Below are positions 9,447 through 63,759 of a DNA stretch of 64,000 nucleotides, piece after piece. A model generated the notes under the pieces. The model made no database searches, was not told the origin of the DNA, and was given only the letters and a program-made list of their open reading frames with translations. Made by a program: the position numbers and the translations under genes. This DNA comes from Nymphaea colorata. Its lineage: Eukaryota > Streptophyta > Magnoliopsida > Nymphaeales > Nymphaeaceae. The stretch's first letter is position 1. Every line of letters begins with the position of its first letter. The stretch is from NCBI RefSeq assembly GCF_008831285.2, contig NC_045140.1:25066131-25130130 (forward strand), given 5' to 3'.

Positions 9447-12005
9447 ATGAACCTAGGTAGGGAGTCTCGGCTGAGTATGGTCTTAGCTCAAGTAGGCCGA
9501 GCTGGCTTATTGAGAAAATCTAAAGTCTGGGTGGCAACCCAGACGAGCCCCCCACCTTGCGCCCACCAAGCGCAAGGGTTCATTTCATTAGATAGGGGCA
9601 ATACGCCCAATTCCATATTCATTTGCTTATGCATTTTACTTCAAGTTGTATGGACCGAGTTGGTTTGTATCTCGAGTCATTTGCTTTGAGTTAAAGTGAA
9701 CCGGTTCGATCCATCTATGAATCGAGTCACTTAGGTTAGTATTTAAACTTTGTATAATTTGGATTTCACATGCAATTTGAGAAATAAGATTTCATTTGAG
9801 TTCTAGCACTCTCTCTCCTCAGGTCTCCTCTCTCTCTCGTGCCCCTCTCTCTCTCTTCTCATCCCCTCCAAATTGCCGGCGGTGGCTGGTCCCTTTCCCC
9901 CTCACGCAAGCCTCTCTAAACCCGATGGTTTCTTCCTCCTTCTCCTCCCCTTTCTTGGTCTCTTCCTCAACCCCTCGACCGGCGGCATATTGGCTGAAGA
10001 TCCCCAAGGTGTGCCTCGGCCCTTGCTGCATCCACAGCGTAAGTTTTCCCCATCCAAATTTCAGCGATCAAATGTGCGTTCTCCCTTGGACACGAAGGAA
10101 GAATAGATGCCAGCATTGCTCCCGGGAAGGCTGCATTACCTCACGGTGGGCAGCAAATGACTACAACCACAAACTAAAGATTAGTGCTTTAGATTTTGGG
10201 ATTTGAATTGTGTAACGACATTGGCTTGTTTTGAATTAAGATTCAGCCAAAAGAGTGGCCTGATTCCCTCAAGTCACAGCCGAGAGTTTCAGTCATTTCC
10301 CACGGTGGAAACTTGATTTAAACCAAGTCTTACGAGTCACAAGGATTACCCTTAGTTTCTGGCATGAATTCCTTAAGTTTGGTTATGTTTCACCGGTCAA
10401 ATCTGAGCAAAAGAGTGTAGAATCCATTCTTGGTTTCAGCCTACAATATCACCGGAAAAACAGAAAGAAAATATTGAGAAAACAGTGAAAAAGGGTAGAA
10501 AAAGAAAAGAAAAGAAAAGCCCATGAAAGAAAGAAATCGAGAGAGAATTGAGTTTCATTTTGGCTTGTTTTAGTGCTGGTCGAAAATTTTGAAATTTTTC
10601 GGCCACCGCTGCTATAATTCCGGCATACATTTGGGGCTTCCGGCCATATTCAATCCGAGGACACATTCACCCTTCGTCTGGTTAAGAAGCAGCAACATTT
10701 GGCATGGGCAATCTTGGGAGATCGTGTGGCACATTTGGGAATTGCGTGTAAGGATTCTTCCTCAAGGGAGTCGGTGCACATTTAGTCTTCTTCAGCCTTA
10801 AGCCAACATTTGAGGAGCGGGATCTCTTCCTAGGCCAACCTTCATCCTCTACCCTAACACGTGGCAACTTCCTAGCTGGTGGGCCAAGTCCAAGAAAGAG
10901 AGAGAGTCTCCCACATCTGGTTGGGGTGCATCAGAAAGCGCCACCTCACTACATTTGGGCAAGGAGAGGGCTGCTCGTCCTTATCACCTCCACATTTGGT
11001 GGAGCCGACTTTTGTTCACTCTCTACCACTAACTTTAAGACTCTACATGTGCCCTAATCCCTCCTACATTTGCTCCTAACCCCATTCCATCTAGAAGCCA
11101 CCTAAGTCGCGTGTGAGGAGGTCCACATTTGGACTCCACCTTACCCTAGCGGGTCCCCTTAGCTCCCACATTAGATCAACACTCAATAAGAGTGCAGAAC
11201 AGCCACATTTGATCCTAATCCTTACCCATTTCCACGCCTGAAACATCATTTCCTAGACCTAAACTCTCTGTCCTTACTTTACCCCTAAGCCACATCTCAA
11301 TTTATCTAGCCTACCCATCTTGACCTAAACCTAGTTGACTAAGACTAAACCCCGTACCCTAGTCAAACCTACCAAGCCCACAACTATTTAGACCTACCCT
11401 AGCCAACCACCCATAGGTTCAATCCGAGCTCAACATCTCTACTATAGCTAGGTTCCACCCAAGCTCTAGACCGAGCTTGACTCTTGGTTGGCCCGGCAGA
11501 CGATTCTTACAGTTGCACCATTCAGCCTTCACCAGCATTGGTCTTATCATCTTCTGTAGCTGAAATACCCGAGAATTGGTCTTCTTCCCGTGGTCTCTGT
11601 GCTGGGTCACCAAGCTAGCCTTGGTAGGGTACGTGTTCTTTAAAGCTCTCTAGACACGATCTAAGCGGGGAGATTGTTCATCTTAGTTTAGTGATTGCAT
11701 TTTCATTTGAGTGTTCTTGTAGTTTTTCGGTGGCCATTGGCCTAAGACCCGGCTGCAAGACACTAGTTCCTTTATTAGCTTTGTTCTTAGTGCTTGAATT
11801 ATTGCTTTGTTATTCCAATTGAGTTAGAGTAGATTGTTCCTCTTGTGCTCGTTTAGCCTCACTTCCGTTATTAAACCTTGTTGTAGTAGGTTCGTCTTAG
11901 TCTCCCTCAAGAGATCTTGGGCATAGGATCGGCTGTAGGAAAACGTTCAGCCCTACTCTGGAGCAAGGTTGTATCAGTGTAATCGGCTTTGTCCTTTTCA
12001 CCTTG
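9447..12005 (+). mobile_element. Probable 3' LTR / untranslated region of the Ty3/gypsy element
   Basis: The 2.5 kb after the integrase end has no long coding frame. It contains a possible promoter region near 9740 (TATTTAAACTTTGTATAA), pyrimidine-rich sequence at 9808-9960 and a cluster of ACATTTGG-like words at 10627-11212. It ends about where an unrelated dispersed repeat starts (12010). Position and composition fit a long gypsy LTR, but no second LTR is in the window, so the boundaries are unproven. Short frames such as 9796-10206 look incidental. Confidence 0.5.
10627..11212 (+). repeat. Cluster of about twelve ACATTTGG-like words
   Basis: ACATTTGG or a close variant begins at 10627, 10695, 10731, 10778 (ACATTTAG), 10806 (ACATTTGA), 10913 (ACATCTGG), 10951, 10992, 11066 (ACATTTGC), 11125, 11168 (ACATTAGA) and 11205 (ACATTTGA). 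Spacing is irregular, 28 to 107 bases, and the flanking sequences differ, so this is not a simple tandem array. All copies are on the same strand. Confidence 0.8.
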
Positions 12006-12009
12006 ACTT

Positions 12010-13277
12010 GTGAGCTCTTTGTGGGAATATATGGTAGTTTGTGGATTTTAAGAGCAAGTTTTTTTCCGTTGAATTTATTGAGAACTATTGACGCAGACTT
12101 CGTTCTCTTAAAATTTAAAAAACGAAGCGAGGAAAAAGAACTTGCCGTGCCCTTTTTGGTGGGACCCACCACACGCTGCATGCTCCATGCTGCATGCTGC
12201 TCCGCCCTAAAATAAGGGAAAAAAAAAAAACAAGGAAGGTTTTCTCCTAGTCATTCTTTATGTTTCATTGACGTATTGTTCAACATTTGCTAATTAGTCC
12301 CAATTCTAAATTAACTTCTGAGATTTAGGTTTAGACATGCATGTCATGTCAATGTATCAGATTTGAATGAGATATCTCTTTGAATTGCTTCTAAAAAAAA
12401 ATCTACTTTCTGATTGAAAAATAGAATTAGATTTTAGTTTAACAAATGACATCTAATCTAATTTGGATTCACTTTCAAATAAATATACGATCAAATTTGT
12501 TATTCCTTTTTCAATTAAATATTGTATAGCTCAAGCACGTATATTTGAAAGTCAATTTTTAATGTATCATGCAGTTAGAATGTATTAAAAAGTCGGATTG
12601 GGTTGAAAATCAATTTGGGTATGATATAGAGTTTTCTTCTTACATATTATAATTTGAATGTATATGAACATCCAATAACTGCAAGGAAGCACCCATGAAA
12701 TGGTGTGAGTAGGGCAATGCACGAGTTGAGTTGAGCTCAAGCTCGATCAGCTCAACTCGACTTGACTCATATCTTGCTCGGTCTGAGCTCGAGTCGGGCT
12801 GTTCAAGATTAGCTCGAGCTTACTCAATCGACATAGTTTTGGCTTGAGCTTGAGTCATCTAAACTTGTATACCAACTTTCTATTTGGCTTGATCTTCGTT
12901 GAATTTAAATTTAAAAATTATAAGAAAAACATAGACTTACTTGAGTTTAATCAAATCAAGTTCATGTAACTTGGACTCGACTAGTTTATAAGCTTGAGTT
13001 TTCAGTTAAACCCAATAAAATAGTCAAATTCAAGTCCAGCTAGAAAATTTTGATTTAAAGGCACGTTATAAAATTTAAAAATTTTACTTAGTACTTATAT
13101 TAATGAGAAAAACTGCAATGAAATTTTGGTATTGAAATAAATATTTTTTTTCCCTTGTGTGGGCAACTGTCCGGCCTTTGCCCCTGGTCAGACCCATATA
13201 GGATCTGGGGTATCCCCTCGTTCTAGTTCTAGTTCTAGTTGGACCAGGAACCGTATCCATTGAATTGCTCCACCTCT
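12010..13277 (+). repeat. Left arm of a large inverted repeat
   Basis: Two blocks here, about 12010-12750 and 13020-13277, recur in reverse complement, in mirrored order, at about 19700-20485 and 18878-19135. Shared landmarks are GGAATATATGGTAGTT, TTTAAAAAACGAAGCGAGGAA, GCATGCTGC, CTCAAGCTCGATCAGCTCAA, GGTATCCCCTCGTT and CCAGGAACCGTATCC. The sequence between the two blocks differs between the arms. It is probably a composite transposable element present in two orientations. Confidence 0.8.
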
Positions 13278-15182
13278 ATGAATTGCTTCCCATTGTAGTC
13301 GTTTGCAGTTTAGATGAGTAACACCAATAAAAATTGAATTAATGATGTGCCATTTACACTCTGCCAGCCCAACCAGTTAATACTATGCCCTTTGGAGCAT
13401 CGAGAACTTGATGGGAATGATTCAAATGATTTGGCCCAATGGCCTGAACTGCGAATAGTCACTTGTGAGTTGGGCCTATCTGAATCCAACGAATGCATAT
13501 CAAAGCGTTTCAGGCGGGGACTGCCACCATACCGATGACTATGCTAATCCCTTTCTTGACTTGGTTTGTGGCAAAAGATACAGGGCCGTCCAGTAAAACA
13601 AGTTTTTGTTCTGAACAGCCTGATTCTAATACCGCATTAAATGATCTTGGCCCTTGTTTAGAGTACACATCCTGATCAACATGTTTTCTTTTTTTTTTTT
13701 TGAGAAAAAAAAAATTGCAAAAGGAACTTAACACTGGTGTTTGATCATGCAGGGAAATGCTTACAAATAGTTTTCTGCTTAATGTTTCATGCAAGGTTTC
13801 CAAGTTTTATCACCAAGAGGAACTGCACCCACCCAGTGTGAGGGGTTGGACTCAAGTCATCCAAGTTGATGGAGGTCAAAATTCAGAACCAAAAGGGTGT
13901 GTCAGCCTCTTAGCGCAAGCTGCTGTGTCTAGCTAGTCTAGCTAACTTTAGCTTTACCTATCAAATGAAAAAACAAGGAAAAAATAGAAAAAGAAAAAAC
14001 ACCTGAAGACTCGGCAATGGTAAGGGACATACTTTAATGATATTATTAAACGAAGAACGAAGTTTTGGGTTGTTAGCAAAAAAATAACATTCTGTCAATT
14101 AAACCTTAGGCTACCATTGACCTTAAGCTGGCTTTATGAGATAACATGACTGAAGTACCTTCAATATAAATGAACATCATGTTTATACTTTACATTGGCC
14201 CATTTAATTATACAATCAATATCAGTACATGTTCAAACGTAATCTATCTTCTTTTTTGTCAACATCTAGATTAGCAAGGTGAACTTTTTTCTATTATTCC
14301 TAAATCTCAAAGTATCGCTTTGAAAAAATCCAAAGAAGAAAAGAGAGCTGGTCGGAAAGTCAGACAAATAAAAACAATTTTTATCCTCCAAAGTTTTTTC
14401 AGTGAAGTGCTTAAATTCAAGCCATCCACACTTGAACTCGACTTGATATGCGAGGGATGTTGAATTGTGAGTGGGATGAAGGATTCTACTCTCGCTTTAA
14501 TCCTTGGTTAGCCGTCTCCTTCCGCTAACTCTTTTCTTTTCTTTTCCTTTTTTTTCCTATTTTTCAGATGACGACCTTCATCCTCGACCTTACGAAAATT
14601 AAGCAGTCAAGGGCAGCAAGAAACAACAGTTTCAGGAATTAACCCAAGGAATGGGAAACATCCGTGCACGGATAAACTAGATATGCACAGGCAAGAACTT
14701 GAAATCTTTCAAACAACCACCTCGTGTCTTTGATGTGCATGCCTCTCAGAACACCCCCTGCATGTGAAATACTTCACGGTCCATGTTTAAAAATGATCAA
14801 TGTTTACATGGATAAGCAGGGGAGATATTTGGCGCATGTAGCAGGTATTTACATCACAACTGTAAAAGCCATAAAATTTTCATTCATTTAAAGACATAGA
14901 CCCATCAGGTCTTGCAATTTGGCAAAGTTACAATGGCATCTTCCTGGAATTGAGCTCATTTATAGAAGTTAACTCAAGAAAACATGAAAAAGTCCATTTA
15001 AAATCTCAGGATTAACTAAAAGCTGCTCATTTGTGCAGGGAGCATTTCCTCTTATCCTGAACATCTCCTAAGGCATCATCATATCAATTGTAGAAAGAAC
15101 TCTCTCTGAAAAAATTTCAAGCACAGAACATCTTCAAGGTTCAAAAATGTACCTCAAGAACCCAGAGCAGCTTTGACAAAAA
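13278..15182. other. Non-coding stretch downstream of bL28m
   Basis: No gene is supported. The first 100 bases share an inverted 85-base match with 2058-2140. The last few hundred bases should hold the 3' untranslated region of the bL28m gene. A-rich runs lie at 13690-13720 and 13970-14000. Confidence 0.5.
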
Positions 15183-15904
15183 TCATGAAGCTGACTCTTG
15201 CTGAGCTGGATGAGTTTCACCATCACTAATGGCTCGGTCTTTCTGTCCTTCCTCAATTAAAGTCCCCTTCTTTGTCCCTTGGCTCGCCATCCTCCGAGCT
15301 TCTCTTCTTGCCTCTCTTTTTGCAATTTTTAGCTGTTCAAAGCCTTCTTCCAGTTTCTGTTCCTCTTCAGGCGAGAAAAAACCAACTTCCATTGCTCCCA
15401 ATTCTTCATACATCTTTTCTATCCTAGCCTTCCAGAACAAAGCCATCTCATTGTCAAGCTTTTTGTAAGGTATATTCAGTAAATACTCATCAATGCCACC
15501 AGCCTTGTCAATGCAGCGAAGCGCATGTGTTGTGACCTTGACACGAATATGACGGTCAAGGATGTAACTGAAAAGCCGTTTCTCTTGCACATTTGGTTTC
15601 CAGGTTCGCCTTGTCCTGTAATGAAGCAAAGCAGAGAAGCAATATTCACCATTACAAGAACCTAAATACTAACTACAAATGATAACAAAATTTTTCAATT
15701 TTGAAATAATGACCATGACTAGATTATGTTTGTCTTCAATTAATAAAAACAAGATATTTTAGGGCCACAACTAATGTGAAGGTTAACTTTATATGGACAT
15801 TTCTACCAATATACTGATGAGGGATAAAAAATTGAATAAAATGTTTTCTTTTTTAGGATCTACACAAAACACAAAACATTGTGGCTCACATGACATGCTT
15901 TCAA

Positions 15905-16545
15905 ACTATGTCACATAGGTGCAGGGTGTGGGTGCTTGAGCATCACATTCTCAAAAATTTAGGTACAGCGGCATGGCGAAAATCTTTATTTGTTATTATT
16001 AATTTATTATAATATATATATACACACACATGCACACGCGTAAGAATTAAGAAATTTAAAGTATACACTATAGTCTATACACTCTACACTACACGTTTTA
16101 TGGATAAATTATATATGAATAATATATATTACAAACTTATAAGTTATAAATTTATAATGTATTGTGTATATGAATGTAACATATTAAGCATTAACATGCT
16201 TACAAAGTACAAACATTAAACAACTAAACAAAAAACAATAAAACCAGGACAGACCACAGAAATGGAAAACCAATGCTAAACCATCTTTTTAACATTAAAA
16301 ATTTTTAAAATAAAAAATATCAAAAAAGGACAAAAATAGGCTTGATGTCGTTTGACCGCACCGACTCGAGTTAAACGCGAGTCGGGTGCGCGTCCAAAAT
16401 AGACAAGAAATGATCGGGGTGCGGTCAACTGCCCTCGACTCTTGTTGACTAGAGTGAGGTGTGAATCCAAGCCGCACCCGCACCCGAGTCATGTCGACAC
16501 GGGTGCGGCAGTCACTTTGCAGCGTCCGTGTGACTTAGTTTTCAA
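15905..16545 (+). mobile_element. Non-autonomous DNA transposon-like element in the bL28m intron
   Basis: The left end, starting near CTATGTCACATAGGTGCAGG, and the right end, with GCACCCGCACCCGAGTC and CGTCCGTGTGACTTA, are GC-rich and partly complementary (GTCACA/TGTGAC, repeated GGGTGCGG), around an AT-rich core. A longer relative with the same left end (ATTTAGGTGCAGCGG-like) and a similar right end lies at about 30030-32400. No transposase is present. The superfamily is uncertain, possibly hAT. Confidence 0.45.
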
Positions 16546-16789
16546 ACAAGGAAAGACACTCAGATATATATTCATCGATCTAAATATAATGCCCACCATT
16601 TGAAATTGGACAGAGTTCTTTTGCAGTTGGAATTTTGTTTCAAACTTTCATGTTTTCGACAGAGTTCTTTCACGGTCCAACTCTCTTTGACTCAGGGCTA
16701 ACAAAGATTTGTTGGACTTTTCTGATTGTTTTCATGTTTTTAATATTTTAAAAAAATGAATTCATGTTTTCTAACACTACCTTATGCAA

Positions 16790-17545
16790 TATAATGTAGC
16801 TATGAGTCTGAGCCTTATTGGTTACATGGTTACCTTACGCACTTTACAACATCGATCAACTTTCTGTCTTTTATTCCCCATCTTTTACCATCATCGTCTC
16901 TTCACAGCAAGGCTAACATTCACATTAGTGTGCTAAAAATAGCCATCACACAAAACTCTGGCCATTTCAACTGTACCATTACAACCAACTCTTGCTTTGT
17001 TAAGGGCTCACTGGCCTTTCCCATCAATGGTGGCAAGCCCACCAATTCTCCTCCCAATAGTTTTCAGATATATTTGCTTTTCTGCTCCTCCACCTGAACT
17101 ATGCTTGGAAACTGCGATCAGCTAACAAAACAATTGGCGTAAAACTCCAAAACTTGACTTCATGTTTTGTACATTACTATATGTCATGTTATGTATCTAA
17201 TTATCAGTCTAAGTCATACTGATTTCATGGACAGTTTACGCTTTACAACATTGATCAACCTTCCATCTTTTATTCCCTCCTTCAGCAATCATTGTCTCTT
17301 CACAGCAAGACAAACATTCGCATTAGTGTACCAAAAATAGCCATCACAAGGTACTCTGGCCATTTCAAACGCACCATTACAATCAACTCTTGCTTTGCCA
17401 TTTATCTGACTTCAAGGGCGGGCCTTTCCCAATCAATGCTGGCAACCCCATTATCCTCAGCCCACCAATTCTCATTCCAATAGTTTTCAGATATATTAAC
17501 TTTTTTGCTCCCCCACCTGAGCTCTGCTTGGAAAATGCAATCAGC
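16790..17545 (+). repeat. Tandem duplication of about 350 bp in the bL28m intron
   Basis: Copy A (about 16790-17125) and copy B (about 17170-17545) share CTTTACAACAT, GTCTCTTCACAGCAAG, AAAAATAGCCATCACA, CTCTGGCCATTTCAA, CAACTCTTGCTTTG and ATAGTTTTCAGATATATT in the same order. They have diverged by substitutions and small indels, so the duplication is old. Nothing coding is recognised in it. Confidence 0.85.
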
Positions 17546-18877
17546 TAACTGTATCCGAGACATGTTCATATCCATATATGGAACTATAAGGATTGTAGTT
17601 CTTCGACATTGCAAGAAGAAGAGCCAATTATTAAAATTGTAAGTCATCCAAGTCATGCATATACTAGACTTGACCATCGCAATAGAAGCAAAAACAAAAA
17701 CCTGAAGTCCTCAACTGCAACCAGAAGTCAGTATCAGATATTAACTGAATGCATTATTTGCACTTTCTTGAAATAAAACATATTAACTGTAACTCGACGG
17801 CCATCACCCACAATCCACATAACCAACTTCCCATACTCATCAGCAAATCCGGGAGCCATAAAGATAAAGCTTGGATTGAACATTCTACTATTAAAATGAA
17901 AGGTGAAGAAAACAATCAAGACATACGCAATAGAACATGAACCACAAGCACCACCAAGTTATTTCGTAAGTTACCAACACATCGACGTATTCCCAACACG
18001 CAGAAATGTATGGTTTGTCTTAACACTTAGTATTCTCAAAACCTAGAATACATCCTATAACAACTCTCATTGTTTTTTGTAAACCAACCGCGTAATTACA
18101 CAGTAACTCATATACCGAGTTTGAAACGCCACAATCTTACTCCACATCCCATGCCATCTCAGTTAACGTAAACCCTGAAAATCTCCACCCGAAGACCAAC
18201 CCCTTCCACTCAGTGAGAAAAGAGGGTGAACAAGAAGTAGCAAGAATCAGTTATCAGAGGGGAAACAGAACCAATGCGAACCTAGACTTTCTCTATGTAA
18301 CAGTTACAAAAGGGAAGACAAATACTAAAACGCATAGAACAAAAGAGACAGAAATCGAGATTGCGACCTGTCGTAGACTTCTATCCAGAAGCACTAAACT
18401 CTTACAACATAAGGGGAAAACAAAACAAAACGAGAAGTGGGTATTACTTATTTCCACCATCTTCGCTGACTTGGTTGCCGAATTGGATGTGGCGGCCAGC
18501 CTAGAGGCCCCTCTTGGCTCTACCCATCACGCATTTCTTGTCCGGGAGGCACTTCTTGAGCGACTCCTCGACGCCCGGCGCCAGATTATCCCGACCCACC
18601 TTCTTGATGAGCTTGTTGAACAACTCCCTCGATCTAAACGCCATCTCTCTCTTTCCCCCTCCCCACTTTCTTTTCCTTCGACGAAGATGGAAGTGAACGA
18701 AGAGGCCAAGATCTGTGAATGCCTCCACCTCCAGGCACTCACCCTCAGCTCTGCGTGCAGAAGGTCCCTAGGGCTGTCAGCGGGGAACCGATTCTTGTTC
18801 TGGCTAGTGCTTCCCGGTGGGCGTCTGCGTCAGTAGGAACCGCAGTCCGCAACCAGACGGTTCGGTTCAAAATTCTG

Positions 18878-20485
18878 AGGTGGAGCAATTCATGGATACG
18901 GTTCCTGGACCTACTAGAACTACAACGAGGGGATACCCCCAGATCCTATCAGGATCCATTTTTTGTTTAATGGGTCTGACCAGGGGCGGAGGCCGGACAG
19001 TTACCCACACAAGGGAAAAAAATTATTTATTTTAATATTAAAATTTCATTGCAGTTTTTCTGATTTATATAAGTACCACCTAAAAATTAAATATTTTATA
19101 ACTAGTGTTTTTAAATCAAAATTTTCTAGCTGCACCCTCGAACAAAACAAGGATTTCAGATCCCGTCGGATCAAAACATGCCCAAGGAAACGCTCGAACT
19201 GCATTTAACAAAATCGAGACTTACTTGCCGTCGAAGAACACGGGATTACTAGAACCTCTTCATGCTTCTTTTTTTTAGAGAGTTGAAATTCTTCTTTCAC
19301 ACTCGCATAAACATAGTTAACAATATTCAACAGTGCACTTTCTGCACTCCTTTTTCATATCTTCATGAACCCGTGATTTTGATGGCAAGGAAATAATAAG
19401 CTTTCGTAAAGCGATGTCAATATATCAATGTGAAAAAATACCCTAAAACCTCAAATATAAAAATAAGAAATTTTTTGAGATATGTTTAGCCAATTGTCCA
19501 CGCATCTTAGCCAGAGGCAAAACTCGTCCAAGTCTTGATATGATTATTGAGAAAAAGCTTTTCTCCTTTCATTCTTTCATTCTTAATTTTTAACGTGCCA
19601 AGTGATCCAAAATCAGTGTCTGACTTTTCGTTTCCACTTTCTCAATATAAAAAAAAAAAATACTTTTTTTTCTGAAAGTTAAATTCTTCGTTAAGAGGGA
19701 TGGCCCATAGAAATTGTAAACTGCGACGGTTCAACGACTCGAGCTCGGACCAAGCAAGATATGAGTCAAGTAGAGTTGAGCTGATCGAGCTTGAGCTCAA
19801 CTCAGCTCATGCATTGCCGTACTCACACCATTTCATTGGTGCTTCCTTGCTTTGCAGTTATTGGATGTTCATACATTCATATTTAAATATGCAAGAAGAA
19901 AACTCTATATCATACCCAAATTGATTTTCAACACAGTCCGACTTTTAAATACATTCTAACTGCATGACACGTTAAAAATTGACTTTCAAAATATATGTGC
20001 TTTAGCTATACGATATTTAATTGAAAAATTAATGATAAATTCGATCCTATATTTAATTAAAATTGAATCCAAATTAGATTAGATGTCATTTCTTAAATCA
20101 AAATCTAATTCTATTTTTTTAATGAGAAAGTAGACTTTGTTTTAGAAGCAATTCAAAGCGAATATCTCTTTCGAATTTGATACATTGACACGCATCTCTA
20201 AACCTAAACCTCAGAAGTTAATTTAGAATTGGGACTAATTCACGTCAATGAAACATAAAGAATGACTACGAGAATTTTTATTTTCCCTTATTTTGGGGCA
20301 CAGCAGCATGCAGCATGCAGCATGTGCTGGGGCCCAACCAAAAGGACACGGCAATTTCTTTTTCCTCGCTTCGTTTTTTAAGAGAACGAAAGGGTTCGAA
20401 GTCGCGTCAATCTTCTTAACCAAAAAAAAAAAAAACTTGCTCTTAAAATTTACAACTACCATATATTCCAAAAAAAAGCTCAAAG
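18878..20485 (-). repeat. Right arm of the large inverted repeat
   Basis: Reverse complement of the left arm (12010-13277), with about 565 bases of non-matching sequence (19135-19700) between its two shared blocks. The inner end lies about 235 bases upstream of the bL28m start codon. It includes GCAGCATGCAGCATGCAGCA, which varies in repeat number relative to the left arm. Confidence 0.8.
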
Positions 20486-22570
20486 TTCAAAAGTGAAAAC
20501 ACGCATTTTCTGTCCAAATTTGGGTCCTTCAAGAGGGGTTTATGTCTACTCCATATTTAACATTCATCAATTTCATATTTAAAATTCATCAATATGATGT
20601 GGATCTGATATGGCATGATTTTTTTTCATGTAGATCTTATATGGCATGTCGAAACTGAAATCCGCATTTGAAATTCTTGTTTTGTGTTTTTACATTGAGA
20701 AAATACCGGATTTAAGATCAAAAAAGAGGAGGGCCCTAAGTTTAAAACCAAGGTTTGTCAAATCGTAAGGATTTCTATGTCATGAGCAATCAAACACCCC
20801 CTTAAGTTTTTCAGCTAATATTGGTTGTTCAGGAGATCCAGCAAAAGGTGAAGGCTTAAAATTGAAAGTTCTCAAAAGTGGCGGCGGACAAAGACTGGTA
20901 TTGCTAATTGAGATCAGTGAGGATTTTAGATCCCAGGATAAATTGAGGTCAGACCCCTTCCTCCTCCCATCGGACTTAATATATAAGGTTTTGGCTACAC
21001 ACTGCGGATCTTAAATCTTCATTTTTCGATAAGTTTGAAGTCCAATGTTTGTTTACTAAATGGGGCCCAAAGAGAAAGGTTATAAGATCAGCCTCAGATT
21101 TGAAATCCCAGACAATCAAACACATTCATAAAGAAAATCATTGAAAGAGGCAATCTCATTTAGGGGAAAAAGTTTGCCTTCAATCCAGAAAATTTCTGAA
21201 TAGTCTGAAGTGGGGTATCTACTGCCAAACAAAGTATTTTTATGACCGCGTTCCTAAATTAAGCCTTTTATTCCCCAAGATGGTGGACATTTTCCTCATA
21301 TCTTTATTCGATGGTTCCCATAAAACTTGTGATCATGTAAGAAAGATGAAGAGTATGAGAACCATTCTTAAACATTAACCTAAAAGGACTTCATTACTTT
21401 GACAAAGTTCAGATTCACAATAAATCGTGTAGGCTTTTAGTTGCCAACTGCCCTCACATATATGGCACAGAAAATTAATAATAGTTGACATCACCAATGG
21501 TAATGCATGCGACCGGCTTCAATTAAAAAGGATGGTCGGTTACATAAGCATGGTGGTCATCCTATGCAGGCATTAAATGTGCCGGAAACTTTTTTTATGT
21601 AAATTGATTATAACTTGTACAATCACTTTGATTGATGGTTGTCAAATTGATACATGTAAATTATTTGTTTCAAAAGAAATAAATGATAATATGCATTGGC
21701 TTTTAAGTTTACATGTGCCATTTTGTAAACTTTTAGACATAATGATTATATAGCTAACGATCAGTTCAAATGCTTCTTTATTTTCTTTATATACATATAT
21801 ACTTGGCAACCAGAATTTTTTAAAAAACATGGGAATTGACCTGCAAAATAAGGATGGTATAAGCCATGGTCCAGAGGACCCGCCAGCACTATCTTGAATC
21901 AAATGTAACAAGGAACCTTCTATAGTATAAAAGTTTGTTGGATAACCATTAATTGCTTTAATTTCCCTTTGTTTTAATGTTTTATGAGCTTCAAAGTTTG
22001 TCTAAAGCAGACCAAGATTCATGCCCAACATAATGATGCATGCTCCCCAAGAAAGGGTCTAAGACCCTGATCAGGAACTAAGTTCCCTATATTCTAGAGG
22101 AAAATATGCATCTGCAGTGGGAATTCTGAATCGAAGAGTTTAAAGTCGAACTATAGCATCACCTGGTTGAGAGATTCTCCGAGCAAAACTCGGAAAAGGA
22201 AAGACGATAAATTGGAGAAGTAATTTGATTTGCACCTGAGATGGAATAGAGATTAACTAACCAGGCTTCTCCAAGTGCAGGAGGTGCAAATTCAATAAAT
22301 TAAGATTCACTTGATTGTCAATGGTGTCTTTGGTTCCATTACCCGACAGAAGGTGACCTATCTATTCATCTCAAAGTGTGAATAGAAATTGTCTATGGTA
22401 TCCAAGAAAGCTGCCTGCAGGTTATAAAAAGGATAGCATGCTTATGCCATGGATTATTTTACTTTATCTATATGTCACCGTTTTTATTAATAATATCTTC
22501 ATGGTCGAGATCATTTGCATGCAATCATAGCGCGCGGGATGGTTGAATTCATGAAATTAATGAACAAGTG
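20486..22570. other. Spacer upstream of nicotianamine synthase
   Basis: No gene is supported. The distal part (20500-21200) is AT-rich and repeat-like. The proximal part should contain the promoter of nicotianamine synthase. Two GCATGC sites (about 22436 and 22516) contain CATGC, the core bound by the grass iron-deficiency factor IDEF1; on its own such a short word is weak evidence. Confidence 0.45.
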
Positions 22571-22577
22571 CATATCA

Positions 22578-22585
22578 TATAAATA
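22578..22585 (+). promoter_or_regulatory. TATA box of nicotianamine synthase
   Basis: TATAAATA lies 66 bases upstream of the start codon. Transcription would begin around 22610, giving a short 5' leader of about 40 bases, normal for this gene family. Confidence 0.65.
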
Positions 22586-22650
22586 GATCCGCGCACAACC
22601 ATCTGGTACCACCAGCCGAGCCCTTCTTCATCATATACCAGCAACAAAAA

Positions 22651-23529
22651 ATGGCTGCCTCCCCACAACTAATCAATGACTGTCGCGTCTCTGATGATTA
22701 TTTGATAGCCAACATTGTCCGAATATATAAAAGCCTCTGCGAGCTTGAGTGCCTCAAGCCTTCCATGCATGTCAATGGCCTGTTCACTCAATTGGTGAAG
22801 TTGTGCACCCTTCCATCTTCCATAGACATCAAACTCTTGTCCATTGAGCTGCAGCAAATCCGGCAGGATCTGATAGGCATATGTGCACGCGCAGAAGGCC
22901 TTCTCGAGCTCGAGTTCTCCACACTGCTATCGAAGATCCCCCGGCCGTTGAACTGTCTCCATCTGTTCCCTTACTACTCCAACTACATCGAACTCGCCGG
23001 CCTGGAATACAAGCTCCTGACCGACCATGGCCTGTTGCAGCCCAAGCGCGTCGCCTTCGTAGGCTCTGGTCCCATGCCTCTGACATCCATAGTTCTGGCT
23101 ACCCAACATATGCTGTCAACTTATTTTGCTAACTATGATCTTGATGCATCTGCAAATGATATGGCGCAGCTCCTGGTCTCGACAGACCAAGATCTGGCAA
23201 GGAGGATGGCATTCAGGAGCTGTGATATAAGGAATGCCAGGGAAGAGCTTGCAGAATTCGACTGCATATTTTTAGCTGCATTGGTGGGAATGACCAAGGA
23301 TGAGAAGGTGAAGATTCTGAGGCACATAGGCAAGTACATGAAGGCTGGTGGATTCCTACTCGTGAGGAGTGCAAATGGAGCTAGAGCCTTCCTGTATCCG
23401 GTGGTTGAGGACGCAGACTTGTCCTCCTTTCGAATTCTTCAGGTTTTCCATCCTACCAATGATGTTATTAATTCAATAATTGTTGCCCAAAAGCCCCTTA
23501 GTTCAGATCAATTATGTGATGGCCAGTGA
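22651..23529 (+). CDS. NAS: Nicotianamine synthase
   Basis: An intact intronless gene of 292 residues. Nicotianamine synthase joins three aminobutyl groups from S-adenosylmethionine to make nicotianamine, the plant chelator that moves iron, zinc and copper and, in grasses, the precursor of phytosiderophores. The family is recognised by FPYYSNYIELAGLEYKLL (residues 106-123), the SAM-binding segment VAFVGSGPMPLTSIVLA (134-150), NYDLDASANDMA (161-172), FLAALVGMTKDEKV (207-220), VRSANGARAFLYPV (238-251) and HPTNDVINSIIVAQK (267-281). The conserved Ala-Glu pair before the catalytic domain is at residues 81-82. Plant members are usually 310-330 residues; this one is shorter mainly at the C-terminal tail, with no missing core block. 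Lack of introns is typical of the family. The ATG is preceded by AACAAAA and a TATA box. Regulation by iron status is expected from the family but is not shown here. Confidence 0.95.
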   Translation: MAASPQLINDCRVSDDYLIANIVRIYKSLCELECLKPSMHVNGLFTQLVKLCTLPSSIDIKLLSIELQQIRQDLIGICARAEGLLELEFSTLLSKIPRPLNCLHLFPYYSNYIELAGLEYKLLTDHGLLQPKRVAFVGSGPMPLTSIVLATQHMLSTYFANYDLDASANDMAQLLVSTDQDLARRMAFRSCDIRNAREELAEFDCIFLAALVGMTKDEKVKILRHIGKYMKAGGFLLVRSANGARAFLYPVVEDADLSSFRILQVFHPTNDVINSIIVAQKPLSSDQLCDGQ

Positions 23530-34086: not shown

Positions 34087-35375
34087 TCAGGAATCATCCA
34101 ATTCAACAATTTTTGCTCGCTTCTCGGCTGCAATCTTTCTAATAAAGATACCCCAACGCAAAGCTGCTCTGAGCTTCAGCCACCCTACTACAGCTTTGCC
34201 TGATGACCGGGTGTGGTTCTGACTGAAGCCATAGTTCTGTGCTGGTGTTTGAATGTATGTAGAATAAGGGTCATCCGACATATTCATGCCACCTCCTCCC
34301 ATGCTGAAGAGCCGGAGCAGTTGTTGCATGTCTTCACTCTCAAGCATTTCTGAGCTTCTCACTCGGATCTCCTCTTCAGGAAAGAAATCCTGGTCCCTTT
34401 GGCGAGGCCACTCATCAAGTGAGCTCATAGTTCCTGCTTGTAAGGGTGTCCCGATAGATTCAAAACCCATAGCAGACTGCGGAGGTCCCAAGGCCAATCC
34501 AACTAAGGAACCAGTTTGGACGCCTTCAGCCTGGTGGGAAGAACTCATAAGTTGGTTTGCAGCAGAATATGCAGCAGTGTCAATCTGGAAGTTATTAGCA
34601 ATTAGCGGCTGGGACATGGTTGAGTAGTGAGCTGATGGATTGCCACTGTACCCAGATGTACTTGCATCTCCTACAAAAAGACAAGTGAATTCGATAATCA
34701 TCAAAATTTTTGACATGGAAATCATCCCCTAGAAAAGTACAGTGAGTCTTTCTTTTTCTGAGAGCAAAAGGCAGCATGCAAGAGAGAGAAGGGTAGGGAT
34801 GTTTGGTCATATGTATATGCAAAGCATCCAACTGAATCACAAAATAGAAGAGAGATGCACCGGAGTCAGTCAAACACTACTACGCAATGGTATAAAAATG
34901 AATTTAAATCTAAAAGCCATCTCTAAAGTGAGCAAACACTTGAAGCCACTCTAAAGGCGTTAAATGCAAAGCCAATGCATGAAAAATGAAAGAATCAGTT
35001 CCTCAATGACTTTCACATGTCAAAAGATCACGACCATTTGACAAGGAACCACCAAATGAAGTTAAAGAAAAACGCATGACTCAATGAAACAACACACTTT
35101 ACATTGAGCACATGCACAACGGATTTTAATCTAAAATTCATCCTTCAGCAACTACCAGGATGAGCAACACGATCAGCAAGTTAAGCTGTTCTGAAGCATT
35201 GTATGCAGAGGCCAGTTAAAGAACAAGGAACCTCCAAAAAGGATTTCCCTTCAAAAATCAAAGGTCATTGAGCATTTTATGAAAGGAAAATCAAGTAACA
35301 GCATGTCCAACTAATACTCCAAAGTTCACTAACAACGTCAAATAAAAAAAATCCAAGTTTGCATGTGCTTTTGGG

Positions 35376-35418
<43 letters not shown>

Positions 35419-38400
35419 CTAACACAGGTTCCAGGATGCATGACATTCTGTCCAGAATTAGCTGTAATGGGCATTTGCTGCATAGACGTTTGCTGATCAA
35501 GCACCAGGTATTCAGAATTAGCAGTTCGACTATCTGACCGAGTAGTAATCATCTTTTTGTTCTGTCTAAAGTTCAGCAGTGCTTTCCCATCATATTCTAT
35601 TACACGTGTCCAATTATCATACGCTTTTGTCACCAATGTATCCACATATACCTGCCATCCAGGAATCAAACTACTCAGTATATGATTAAAAGTTCAAGCC
35701 AATTAATACATTTAGGGCTTATTTGCATAACACTCCAAACAAGGTTTTGACAGCAAAACCAGGTTTCGTCTCCAGAACCAACTTTTTGGAGTGTCTTGGG
35801 TGCCATCAAAATTAGGTTGACTCAGTTTTGACAAAACTTGGCTTTGTAAAAGGGAATGAAAAACCTGACCCAACCCTCTTGAGGTTACTCACCAAAATCC
35901 AAGTTTTGGGTGTGTCACACAAATAAATAAACCAAGTTTTTAGAACTCATTAAGAAACTTTCATAAAACCAAATTTTCACAAAACAAAACGAGTTTAAAT
36001 GAGGGTGACATCCAAACCCTCCCTTAGATTTCTCTTCATGAGCATAAATCTTTTTCATATCACACAACATAAGCTTTGAGAGCATCTACATATTTGTCTT
36101 GCTCCATGCAAAATATGTACATTGTTTATGACCTCAAGTGCAGGTGGAGGGTGCGGAACAAAAAATTGACCTAAGACATTGAATTAAGATTTGTTGACAG
36201 ATTTGCTCAGCCGTTTTGGTTCATTAGCAAACAAATTCAGAAAATGATGGAGATTGAGAGTGGGAGCCTTTTTGGCATTTCAAATATCTATAACTATTTT
36301 ACCTCAAAAAGGGACTCATCTGGAAAAAATGCATTAAGCTTTGACAACATATCTTTGGTTTTCTTTTTTTCTTTTTTTGGTGCATGGGTATTTAGCATGA
36401 TATCGTGACAAAAAGCATGTGTTCCTTTTTGCTGTTGAGCAATCTAAAAATTCTGACGAATTGCTTCATGACATCTAACAGTTACATTTCAGGTGCTGAC
36501 CTTCTGTTCATCAGAGAGGGACTCTGCTGAATAGTATTGTTCACCAGAAATAAGACCATACAATTCATAAATGTTGTTGAAAACCACTCCAATGCTCTGT
36601 GAATCATCAGTATAGTACACATAAAGCTTTCCACTAAGCAGACAAGTTTTTGCATGCTCCACTGTAATTTCCCACATCTTATTGGACATACCACTTCCAA
36701 GGATCTATAAGGGCAAAAGAAGAAAATGGATCAGCATAAGAAAATTATATTCTCATGTAAGATCAAATAACCTTCACACCATACATTCCGCAGTCTTTGT
36801 GGATCCCTTGCAACAAGCCGCAGGAAGTCCTCAACTGTAAAAATTCCCGCTTTAGTCAATTTCTTATGAAATGAACCATCCTTTCCTATTTTCTCCAGTC
36901 TCCAAACCTCATCGTTAAATGCTGGTGGATAATGCTTCTTGTACACTGTCACAAATAAAAGTGCAACTTTAGTATAACACTAAGGAAATTATTAAATCTT
37001 CTACCTAGGCAACAGGACAAACCAATCAAATTGCCTGAGCCACATCCAGATAATGAAACAAATATATATAATCTAAAATTAAAAGTCTAATACATACATT
37101 CCCCTCTATGGTCCTTAACCGTAAATGCCTCTGTTTTGGCTTCACGGATACGAATTCCCTCACAGTAGCCAGAAGCAACCTTGAGACCAAGCCTGAATTT
37201 CCTACTACGTATCCAGCTTGAGTTATCTGTAAATGTAAGCTCTCCAAGCGTGCCAACTCCTTCTTTCAAAGTCACCTGCAAATCTCCAGTCAGAAGTGGC
37301 CTCTTACCTTCACGTTCCTTTACAACATGGCTTTCAAACTCTTCTTCGGTCCAGTCATCATCATTTTCATTGTTGAAGTCCCCTTCAAGCACAACAATAT
37401 CTAGCTTGATAGATGATTCTGGGCCTGATGTTACAACTTGACCTGTTACTGCATCCATTAACACCACATGGACTGCTGAGCCTTGCTCCCCTTCGACCTT
37501 TCCCCCAGTGAAAAGCGGTAGAGATAGCGTTGAGCGAAAGTGTAACTGCAGGTTTTGTCCACTTGGTCCTTCTATCTGCTTTGGTGTGGGCCTGCATTTT
37601 CCCAGTATTATTCATAAGTGTGGTGTGTGATACACATACCCAGAGAGCAGTATAAAGAAAAGGAATTATTTTTTTCCTAATATTGAGTGTCATCATTTTT
37701 TCCCTGCCTTTTTCAATAGATAGAAAGAAGAGTGCAACGGTAAAAGCATGAAACATGCATAACAGATACTGGTTTTTGCTATAATAACATAATACCCCCG
37801 CCTAAGCTGAGTACAACAGCCAATTCAGGCCATAGTTTGGAATATTGATCCAAGGATTATAGGTTTATTCTTGAATCAAAATTCCGGAATTGTAATTTTA
37901 CCCTAAGAGGTGAAATTATGATTTCAGCATTTTAGAATTTTTTCATCTCTTTAGGACACATATCATCAATTATTTCAGAATTTTAATTATTGTTTTATCA
38001 AACATGTCAAATTCAGTTCTGGAATCAAAATTCCAAACTATCAAACACAAAGAGAAACTAGAACCGGAATTTTTCATTCCAATTCCAATTTGAGGTGGAA
38101 TTTTATTTATAGAATTTTAATTCTAGAATCAAAATTCAAGGCTGTCAAACACGCCCATACAGTATATACTTTCCCATATACGAATATGTATCACACTAAT
38201 AACTTGTCTAAGACCCCAATAGCATTCTATTCAAATATATCAGAACAGAAAAAACATTGACTTGAAGAAGCATCTGTACAAGCACATACAATCCATCTTC
38301 AGTTTACAAAATGGTCATGATCCATCCATGTTAGATCATTTCCTCTGGTAGACTTCGAAGAGTCCAAAGAACAAATCATGTTCTGAACTACCAGAATTAG

Positions 38401-56060: not shown

Positions 56061-56238
56061 GTTGAGCGTATTTTTTAAATACGCAGAAATACGCAATTGT
56101 TTTCCCTTTTAAACCGCTGGGATTTCTAACGACCGTCGTCGATCCCGTTCGTCGCTGGTTCTCGGATAAATAAGAAGTCGAGCGAGGAGATCGAAGCTCA
56201 GTAGGAGAGGGGTAGGATCGGAGCCACGAAACTCCCAG

Positions 56239-57324
56239 ATGACGCTGCCCAAGTCGCCGGAGGACCGATCCGAACTCCTCAAGGAGGCGCCGCCCCTCAT
56301 CCCGGGACTCCCTGACGATGTGGCGGAGCTCTGCCTCCTCCGCCTGCCCTTCCCCCACCATGCCACCGCCCGCTCCGTCTCATCCTCCTGGAACAAGGCC
56401 ATCTCCGACCCATCCTTTTCCCTCTCCAAGAAGGCCCTCGATCTTTCCCTTCCTTACCTGTTCGTTCTCGCCTTCGACCCTTCATCTTGCCCCTCCCCCT
56501 CCTCCTCTGTCGCTACCCTCCATTGCCACGCCTTCAACCCTCGGACCTCTCTGTGGTTCTCCATACCCCCGCCGCCTTCCGCCAATCTATCCCCTCCTTC
56601 CTCCGCCTCCGCCTCGCTTCCCCATCACGGTACCCTATTCCTCTTAGGCGGCCTCCTTACCGGCACCGATTCCCCCGTCCCCGCCTTGTTTAAATACACC
56701 GCTGCCACCAATTCATGGTCGCCCTCCGCCCCCATGCCCACCGCTCGCTCCTTCTTCTCCGCCACCACTGTCGCCGGAAAGATCGTCGCGGTGGGAGACG
56801 GCTGCGTGGATACGTACGACCCCTCGGCCGACGGCTGGACCACAGCGGCTGGGCCGCGGCTCTCGCCGTACGACGTGGCGGTGATCGGGAGGAAGATGTA
56901 TGTGACGGAAGGGTGGGCGTGGCCGTTCGACAGCCTCCCGAGAGGGGCCGTGTATGACGCGGAGAAGGGGAAGTGGGGGGAGATGAAAGCGGGTATGAGG
57001 GAAGGGTGGACGGGGGCGAGCGCGGTGGTGGAGGGACAGCTCCTGGTGGTCTCGGAGCACAGGGGCACGAGAGTGAAGGCGTACGTGGAGGAGAGGGACG
57101 AGTGGGAGTACGTGGGCGGCGGCGGGGTGCCATGGGAGGTGAAGCGGCCGCTCGCCGTGACAGCGGCGGAGGGAAAGGTCTACGTGGTGGGCAGCGGGCT
57201 GAGCGTGGCGGTGGGCACCCTAAGGAGGGAGAAGGCCGGGCTGCGGCTCGAGTGGGTTGTGGTGGAAAGTCCGCCCCTGCTCAAGTGCTTGGTCCCTACC
57301 GCTGCTCATCTTCTCTACGCCTGA
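56239..57324 (+). CDS. F-box/kelch-repeat protein
   Basis: An intact single-exon gene of 361 residues. F-box/kelch proteins are substrate adaptors of SCF (Skp1-Cullin-F-box) ubiquitin ligases: the F-box binds Skp1 and the kelch propeller binds the target. The F-box is at residues 19-60 (LIPGLPDDVAELCLLRLPFP, then RSVSSSWNKAI). Kelch units follow: GTLFLLGGL at 131-139 with YTAATNSW, GKIVAVGDGCVDTYDPSADG at 180-199, YDVAVIGRKMYVTEGW at 211-226 with YDAEKGKW, ASAVVEGQLLVVSEHRG at 260-276, and a last blade near VTAAEGKVYVVGSGLSVAVG. The LIPGLPDDVA start and overall size resemble the AFR/SKIP type, but the exact orthologue cannot be named. GC content is much higher than in the surroundings, and the reverse strand has long shadow frames for that reason. 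The chosen ATG gives the complete F-box. Confidence 0.93.
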   Translation: MTLPKSPEDRSELLKEAPPLIPGLPDDVAELCLLRLPFPHHATARSVSSSWNKAISDPSFSLSKKALDLSLPYLFVLAFDPSSCPSPSSSVATLHCHAFNPRTSLWFSIPPPPSANLSPPSSASASLPHHGTLFLLGGLLTGTDSPVPALFKYTAATNSWSPSAPMPTARSFFSATTVAGKIVAVGDGCVDTYDPSADGWTTAAGPRLSPYDVAVIGRKMYVTEGWAWPFDSLPRGAVYDAEKGKWGEMKAGMREGWTGASAVVEGQLLVVSEHRGTRVKAYVEERDEWEYVGGGGVPWEVKRPLAVTAAEGKVYVVGSGLSVAVGTLRREKAGLRLEWVVVESPPLLKCLVPTAAHLLYA

Positions 57325-63064: not shown

Positions 63065-63759
63065 ATACTGGTAGTTGTAGAACAAGCTGATGAAGGATTA
63101 AATTAAACTTATTAAACTTTAAAGATAAACGTTTACAATAGTTTCTTAATTTGTAAATAATGGTTTCCGTAGTAATCTCTCTCTCTCTCAAAAAATGTAT
63201 TGTTCCTTAATTTGTTTGTTGTTTTTAACTCAACGTGCCTAAGTTTATAACCTAGTGTAGATTCAATAACAAAAGCTAAAAAAATTTTGTTGAAACTTTT
63301 ACGGTAAACGCGCTCGCTAGCTATATCAATGCATGGTATAAAGATACAAACAAATTGTTACATCTGTATGAAGATTTTGGAAACAGTTTTCAACCAGCAA
63401 TCGACGCACCTCGACTTTACCTCACTAGCTGCATCATTGTTCTAGGCGCGTAAACATCAGTATGAAGATCTTGAAATAATGAAATACTAAAGCAGAATCT
63501 AAAACATGTCCCAATCGATATAGTGGAAAACTAACCAAGACCATAACCCCAGCGAGTCTGTCCAGAACGAGAATCTCAATTGGCTGCATTAGCGAGCCAA
63601 CTAAGCTCAATATTCTAGCACCAGCTATAGCTCGAGTCGAGCTCGATCTGCTACTATATATCAACACCAACTGTGGACTCTAACAGGCCAAGCTCCATAC
63701 ATGGCCCCTATGCATAGGGGTGGACAACGATAAGTACATTGGCTGGCTACTAAGTTTAC

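Follow-up and report, generated by a model that had tools for sequence, protein, structure and literature searches.

bL28m in plants and the copy in the window

The closest described relatives of the gene examined here are the plant mitochondrial bL28m proteins of solved mitoribosomes, represented by Arabidopsis AT4G31460 (PDB 6xyw chain Ax; 9gyt chain 1Z). A table in PMC6953067 lists one bL28m gene for Arabidopsis. No bL28m mutant was encountered in the literature consulted on the plant mitochondrial ribosome or AT4G31460, in a search not aimed at mutants. In Nymphaea colorata, a bL28m copy, designated W, lies on the minus strand of the window, the whole 64-kb stretch of DNA that was analysed (C3:25066131-25130130). 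Its parts, in window positions, are as follows.

18448-18644, minus strand: coding part of exon 1, 197 nt, with the ATG at 18644-18642 and the donor after 18448; residues 1-67 in the own-genome search
15616-18447, minus strand: intron, 2832 nt, GT...AG
15183-15615, minus strand: exon 2, 433 nt, running to the TGA at 15183, with the frame open throughout
18501-18503, minus strand: TAG at codon 48 (CTA on the plus strand)

The end of exon 1 reads AATAA/GTAATACCC, with the slash marking the splice boundary and GT as the donor, and the acceptor side of exon 2 reads TTCATTACAG/GA. Once spliced, the two exons give 630 nt and a frame of 209 residues without frameshifts, as in the first-pass annotation, which had described two exons joined in phase by good splice sites and a lone TAG at codon 48. 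This TAG is the sole internal stop, so that the disabling change in W is a nonsense mutation at codon 48 of 209. It sits in the context CTC TAG GCT, 53 nt upstream of the exon junction, and is followed by 161 open codons. A processed copy is ruled out by the retained intron. A tblastn search of the protein against the 64-kb window returned the two exons of W, and three further weak hits, at E 0.49, 1.9 and 3.1, were taken as chance; neither a second exon 1 nor a tandem bL28m copy was found there.

When searched with X at codon 48, the W protein matched 6xyw_Ax (named AT4g31460) collinearly over residues 1-198 (E 2.7e-85) and 9gyt_1Z over residues 1-201 (E 1.5e-83), similarities that are far above chance. 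The N-terminus MAFR, the L28 core and the C-terminal extension are shared with these plant proteins. PF00830 matched residues 46-104 with 82 bits, above its curated cut-off of 27, and all of the conserved blocks noted in the first-pass annotation are present. TIGR00009, the NCBIfam equivalog model for bacterial L28, gave 42.8 bits, under its cut-off of 48.3; the mitochondrial form is not defined by a match to this model. W differs from the plant bL28m proteins in carrying a stop at codon 48, and its genome in having a second locus with an open frame (see below). The first-pass annotation had expected Tyr or Phe at this position. Tyr was found in all five alignments displayed, among 31 distinct sequences matched, and none of those displayed had Phe. 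The stop falls on the third residue of the PF00830 match, the frame of the L28 core is thereby interrupted, and W is for that reason a broken member of the bL28m family.

Related copies in the genome

The own-genome searches covered an assembly of 407.8 Mb in 783 contigs. PF00830 gave seven matches from nine candidates, comprising two long-frame bL28m exon 2 sequences (W and a sister locus), one short exon 2 fragment and four matches of the bacterial/chloroplast type. With the 209-residue W protein as query, nine matches were obtained from 11 candidates, all of them on C3. This search scores the best candidates only and would not see a copy that fell into an assembly gap, but a full bL28m present in the assembly should score as these do. 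Eight of the matches were strong bL28m pieces: exons 1 and 2 of W, exon 2 of the sister locus together with three copies of its exon 1 (E1a, E1b and E1c), and two exon 2 fragments. The ninth, L020, was weak (E 0.0037 at 27% identity), overlapped with the exon 2 fragment L016 and was left out of account. One of the two fragments is a 5' portion of exon 2 at 24.971 Mb on C3, 94 kb left of the window, and the other, fragment T, lies closer.

C3:25064618-25064901 (L021 8487-8770), in the orientation of W: fragment T, a truncated 3' fragment of exon 2, 1.3 kb left of the window

The four L28 cores of the bacterial/chloroplast type (L001, L002, L004 and L006) are on contigs C8, C3, C3 and C12, respectively. 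The first three occur in open stretches and L006 has an internal TAA. TIGR00009 was run on three of these four copies (L001, L002 and L004), and all three scored above its cut-off. All four were set aside and not counted as bL28m copies.

A search for a second bL28m locus had been proposed in the first-pass annotation, and both the PF00830 and the protein search recovered the same one. It is on the contig of W, 24.4 Mb away, at about 0.671 Mb.

C3:671115-672198: E1c and exon 2 of the sister locus, separated by an intron of 457 nt with GT/AG ends; codon 48 is Tyr (TAC)
C3:666423-671315 (L008 2423-2620, 5009-5209 and 7115-7312): the three exon 1 copies upstream of the single exon 2

Read together, E1c and exon 2 encode 205 residues, against 209 in W, and are open through the whole conserved region; the 457-nt intron corresponds in place and phase to the 2832-nt intron of W. 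The exon 1 copies differ in condition. The first, E1a, is broken, with a stop at codon 27 and His48 (CAC); E1b has Tyr48 (TAC) but is changed at several other residues, among them the Arg of AGRHIQ, which is Leu; and the last, E1c, is intact. On a simple reading, exon 1 would have been copied into the sister intron, with the nearest copy, E1c, taking over and E1a decaying. Alternatively, exon copies of the E1b/E1c type may have been lost from W.

Other differences lie within the coding frame and in front of it. Codon 85 specifies His in the sister, Leu in W and in the L010 fragment, and Phe in the two plant proteins, and the sister frame closes at codon 206, which makes it four residues shorter than that of W. 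Just 140 or so bases 5' of the ATG of E1c are shared sequence, so its promoter differs from that of W, which has more in common with E1b. The presence of E1a, E1b and the exon 2 fragments in the same genome shows that the bL28m family leaves broken copies readily.

The duplicated block and its surroundings

The homology between the two loci extends beyond the gene itself.

14373-18915 in the window, minus strand (L008 2142-9008 = C3:666142-673008): block common to W and the sister locus

It falls into two matched pieces, window 16571-18915 and 14373-15967. The interval between them is occupied in L008 by an extra stretch carrying E1b and E1c, and in W by some 600 bases of intron (15968-16570) without a match. 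No W/sister homology was found beyond window position 14373. Fragment T, by comparison, matches the sister 3' flank past this boundary, to position 11063 of L008 and L009 joined. Since T shares sister sequence beyond the W boundary, a larger block was probably once copied to 25.06 Mb and then rearranged at that site.

The upstream region of W occurs a second time in the window.

18871-20499, minus strand: W upstream region, with an interrupted inverted copy at 11995-13284
11995-13284, plus strand: inverted copy of the W upstream region, without an adjacent exon 1 (tblastn)

W is flanked in this way by a long, interrupted inverted repeat made of its own upstream region. The analysis covered the repeat arms, and a transposon with terminal inverted repeats that carries W is not claimed.

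Divergence and constraint

Between the coding sequences of W and the sister there are 11 differences in 630 positions and no indels, and the changes fall in codons 14, 21, 33, 48, 56, 85, 121, 160, 175, 194 and 206. Six of them are nonsynonymous, including one nonsense change per copy (codon 48 in W and codon 206 in the sister), and the other five are synonymous (pN/pS = 0.32). In paired noncoding DNA, 73 differences were counted over 1401 positions. A pairwise test found coding divergence to be lower than noncoding divergence (Fisher p 0.002). Changes were assigned to branches with fragment T as the third sequence. Among 720 downstream noncoding positions, 11 changes fell to W, 24 to the sister and 37 to T, with three positions different in all three, and in the part of exon 2 covered by T (263 positions) the counts were 2, 2 and 14. 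The sister branch thus shows 2/263 changes in exon 2 against 24/720 in noncoding DNA (Fisher p 0.024), and the W branch 2/263 against 11/720 (p 0.53). Over the whole frame, the sister side carries no more than 6/630 changes (p 0.003) and the W side no more than 5/630 (p 0.31 by Fisher and 0.08 by Poisson), an approximate assignment because E1a and E1b, the sole third sequences for exon 1, are themselves part of the sister locus, and exon 2 is only partly covered by T. The sister coding sequence has thus changed significantly less than its own flank, and this slow change is the strongest available indication that the sister would be the copy in use.

The history of W is less sharply marked. Had W been unconstrained from the split onward while the sister stayed under full constraint, 17 to 20 differences would be expected, and 11 are seen (P 0.07, 0.03 and 0.035 with three noncoding references). 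In the best fit, W was free during about 30% of the time, and the data are still compatible with constraint throughout (P 0.10). Between W and E1c, 5/191 positions differ in exon 1 and 20/244 in its flanks (p 0.013). Comparisons of E1a or E1b with E1c gave no difference between exon 1 and flanks (p 0.86 and 0.55). The pairwise tests contain a hint that W may have been constrained for part of its history. Taken together, the results fit a gene that was retained for some time and lost only recently, and the same pairwise results also fit a W that still works. An unconstrained W would be expected to have gathered 0.39 stops (from the W branch) or 0.58 (from half the pairwise divergence), so that a lone stop in an otherwise intact W needs no special explanation.

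Status of W

We consider it very probable that W arose by duplication of the nuclear bL28m gene, as an unprocessed copy, and was recently pseudogenized by a Tyr-to-stop change at codon 48. A related open copy exists in the genome, the intron has been kept, and a disabling change is present. Ordinary unprocessed pseudogenes of plant nuclear genomes offer the nearest parallel. Like them, W retains its intron and both splice sites, has one disabling change, and is accompanied by a related copy, as well as by fragments, at other places in the genome. No difference from them appeared in the features tested, and the death of W was apparently so recent that a single disabling change has accrued.

The proposed course of events begins with two steps that are recorded in the loci themselves, the duplication of bL28m and the appearance of a nonsense codon in W, with the sister frame open. 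The TAG would then stop translation once 47 residues have been made, with nearly the whole L28 core still to come, and W, if transcribed, would yield a 47-residue peptide without the L28 domain. Its mRNA may also be exposed to nonsense-mediated decay. Junction-dependent decay follows a distance rule with a limit, and since the TAG lies near that limit, the W mRNA may or may not be degraded. In the last step, the sister locus would supply bL28m, and the loss of W would on that account be tolerated; the intact appearance of W would be a consequence of its youth.

The loss of a conserved ribosomal protein had been expected to be costly unless another copy existed. With a related open copy now located, the paradox of a fatal stop in a conserved organellar ribosomal protein gene is removed. 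W is then at most a tidy illustration of a duplicate seen shortly after it was lost, and its family is one in which exon 1 has also been multiplied at the sister locus. Against this reading, the sister is not pristine itself, given its His85, its shorter tail and the altered promoter of E1c, and if W really had Tyr48, W would look the better preserved gene.

Among the four explanations put forward in the first-pass annotation, namely a very recent pseudogene, a segregating allele, an assembly error and readthrough, the recent pseudogene is best supported because a second bL28m copy exists, and readthrough draws no specific support from sequence context or fold. A segregating null allele overlaps with the preferred reading. 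The TAG would be heterozygous or polymorphic and W functional in other plants, which is in keeping with the low divergence of W and its single disabling change; we regard it as rather unlikely. An error of sequencing or assembly, with Tyr as the true residue at codon 48 and W as a second working copy, would explain why W retains all of the conserved blocks, Leu85 instead of His, and the full C-terminus, as well as the constraint hinted at by the pairwise tests. The W branch itself, however, shows no significant constraint. The usual error of long reads is an indel and not a single-base substitution, and the change in W is a single-base substitution in an otherwise clean stretch. The assembly description in PMC7015852 reports polishing of the N. 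colorata sequence with Arrow, and with Pilon and Illumina data, which also counts against an error, although polishing can be misled by close paralogs. On balance, a miscalled base is improbable.

Programmed readthrough at codon 48 would give full-length bL28m from W, and the 161 open codons after the stop, together with coding differences between W and the sister that are fewer than the noncoding ones, could be read in its favor. An open frame is nevertheless expected anyway after a recent nonsense change. UAG-CAR-YYA is a type of readthrough signal, from which CTC TAG GCT differs, and the predicted fold after the stop is about as stable in W (-17.7 kcal/mol) as in the sister (-18.6 kcal/mol), which has no stop there. 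As the sister has Tyr48, readthrough is also not needed, and we judge it highly improbable. A stronger version, equally hard to credit, is that W would still be the main source of bL28m through readthrough, in view of the His85, the shortened tail and the altered upstream sequence of the exon copies at the sister locus; the plant would in that case rely on a core ribosomal protein gene with an internal stop codon. Finally, splicing might skip the stop, either by using CTCTAG/G as a 3' splice site or through another first exon. By eye, TAG followed by G suits an acceptor AG, but the donor-like GGTAGAG just 5' of it would leave an intron of only about 20 bases, use of an exon farther upstream would cost the protein residues 1-47 and with them the beginning of the L28 core, and the tblastn search of the window described above gave no other exon 1. 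This last possibility is scarcely credible.

Other features of the window

Several further features were recognized in the window. A nicotianamine synthase frame lies at 22564-23526 on the plus strand (PF03059, E 6.3e-102), pieces of a calmodulin-binding protein at 35280-37611 on the minus strand (PF07887 and PF20452), and an F-box/Kelch frame at 56170-57321 on the plus strand (PF00646). Near the right end, a match to the U4 spliceosomal RNA is found at 63323-63455 on the minus strand, with 53.7 bits against a gathering score of 46.
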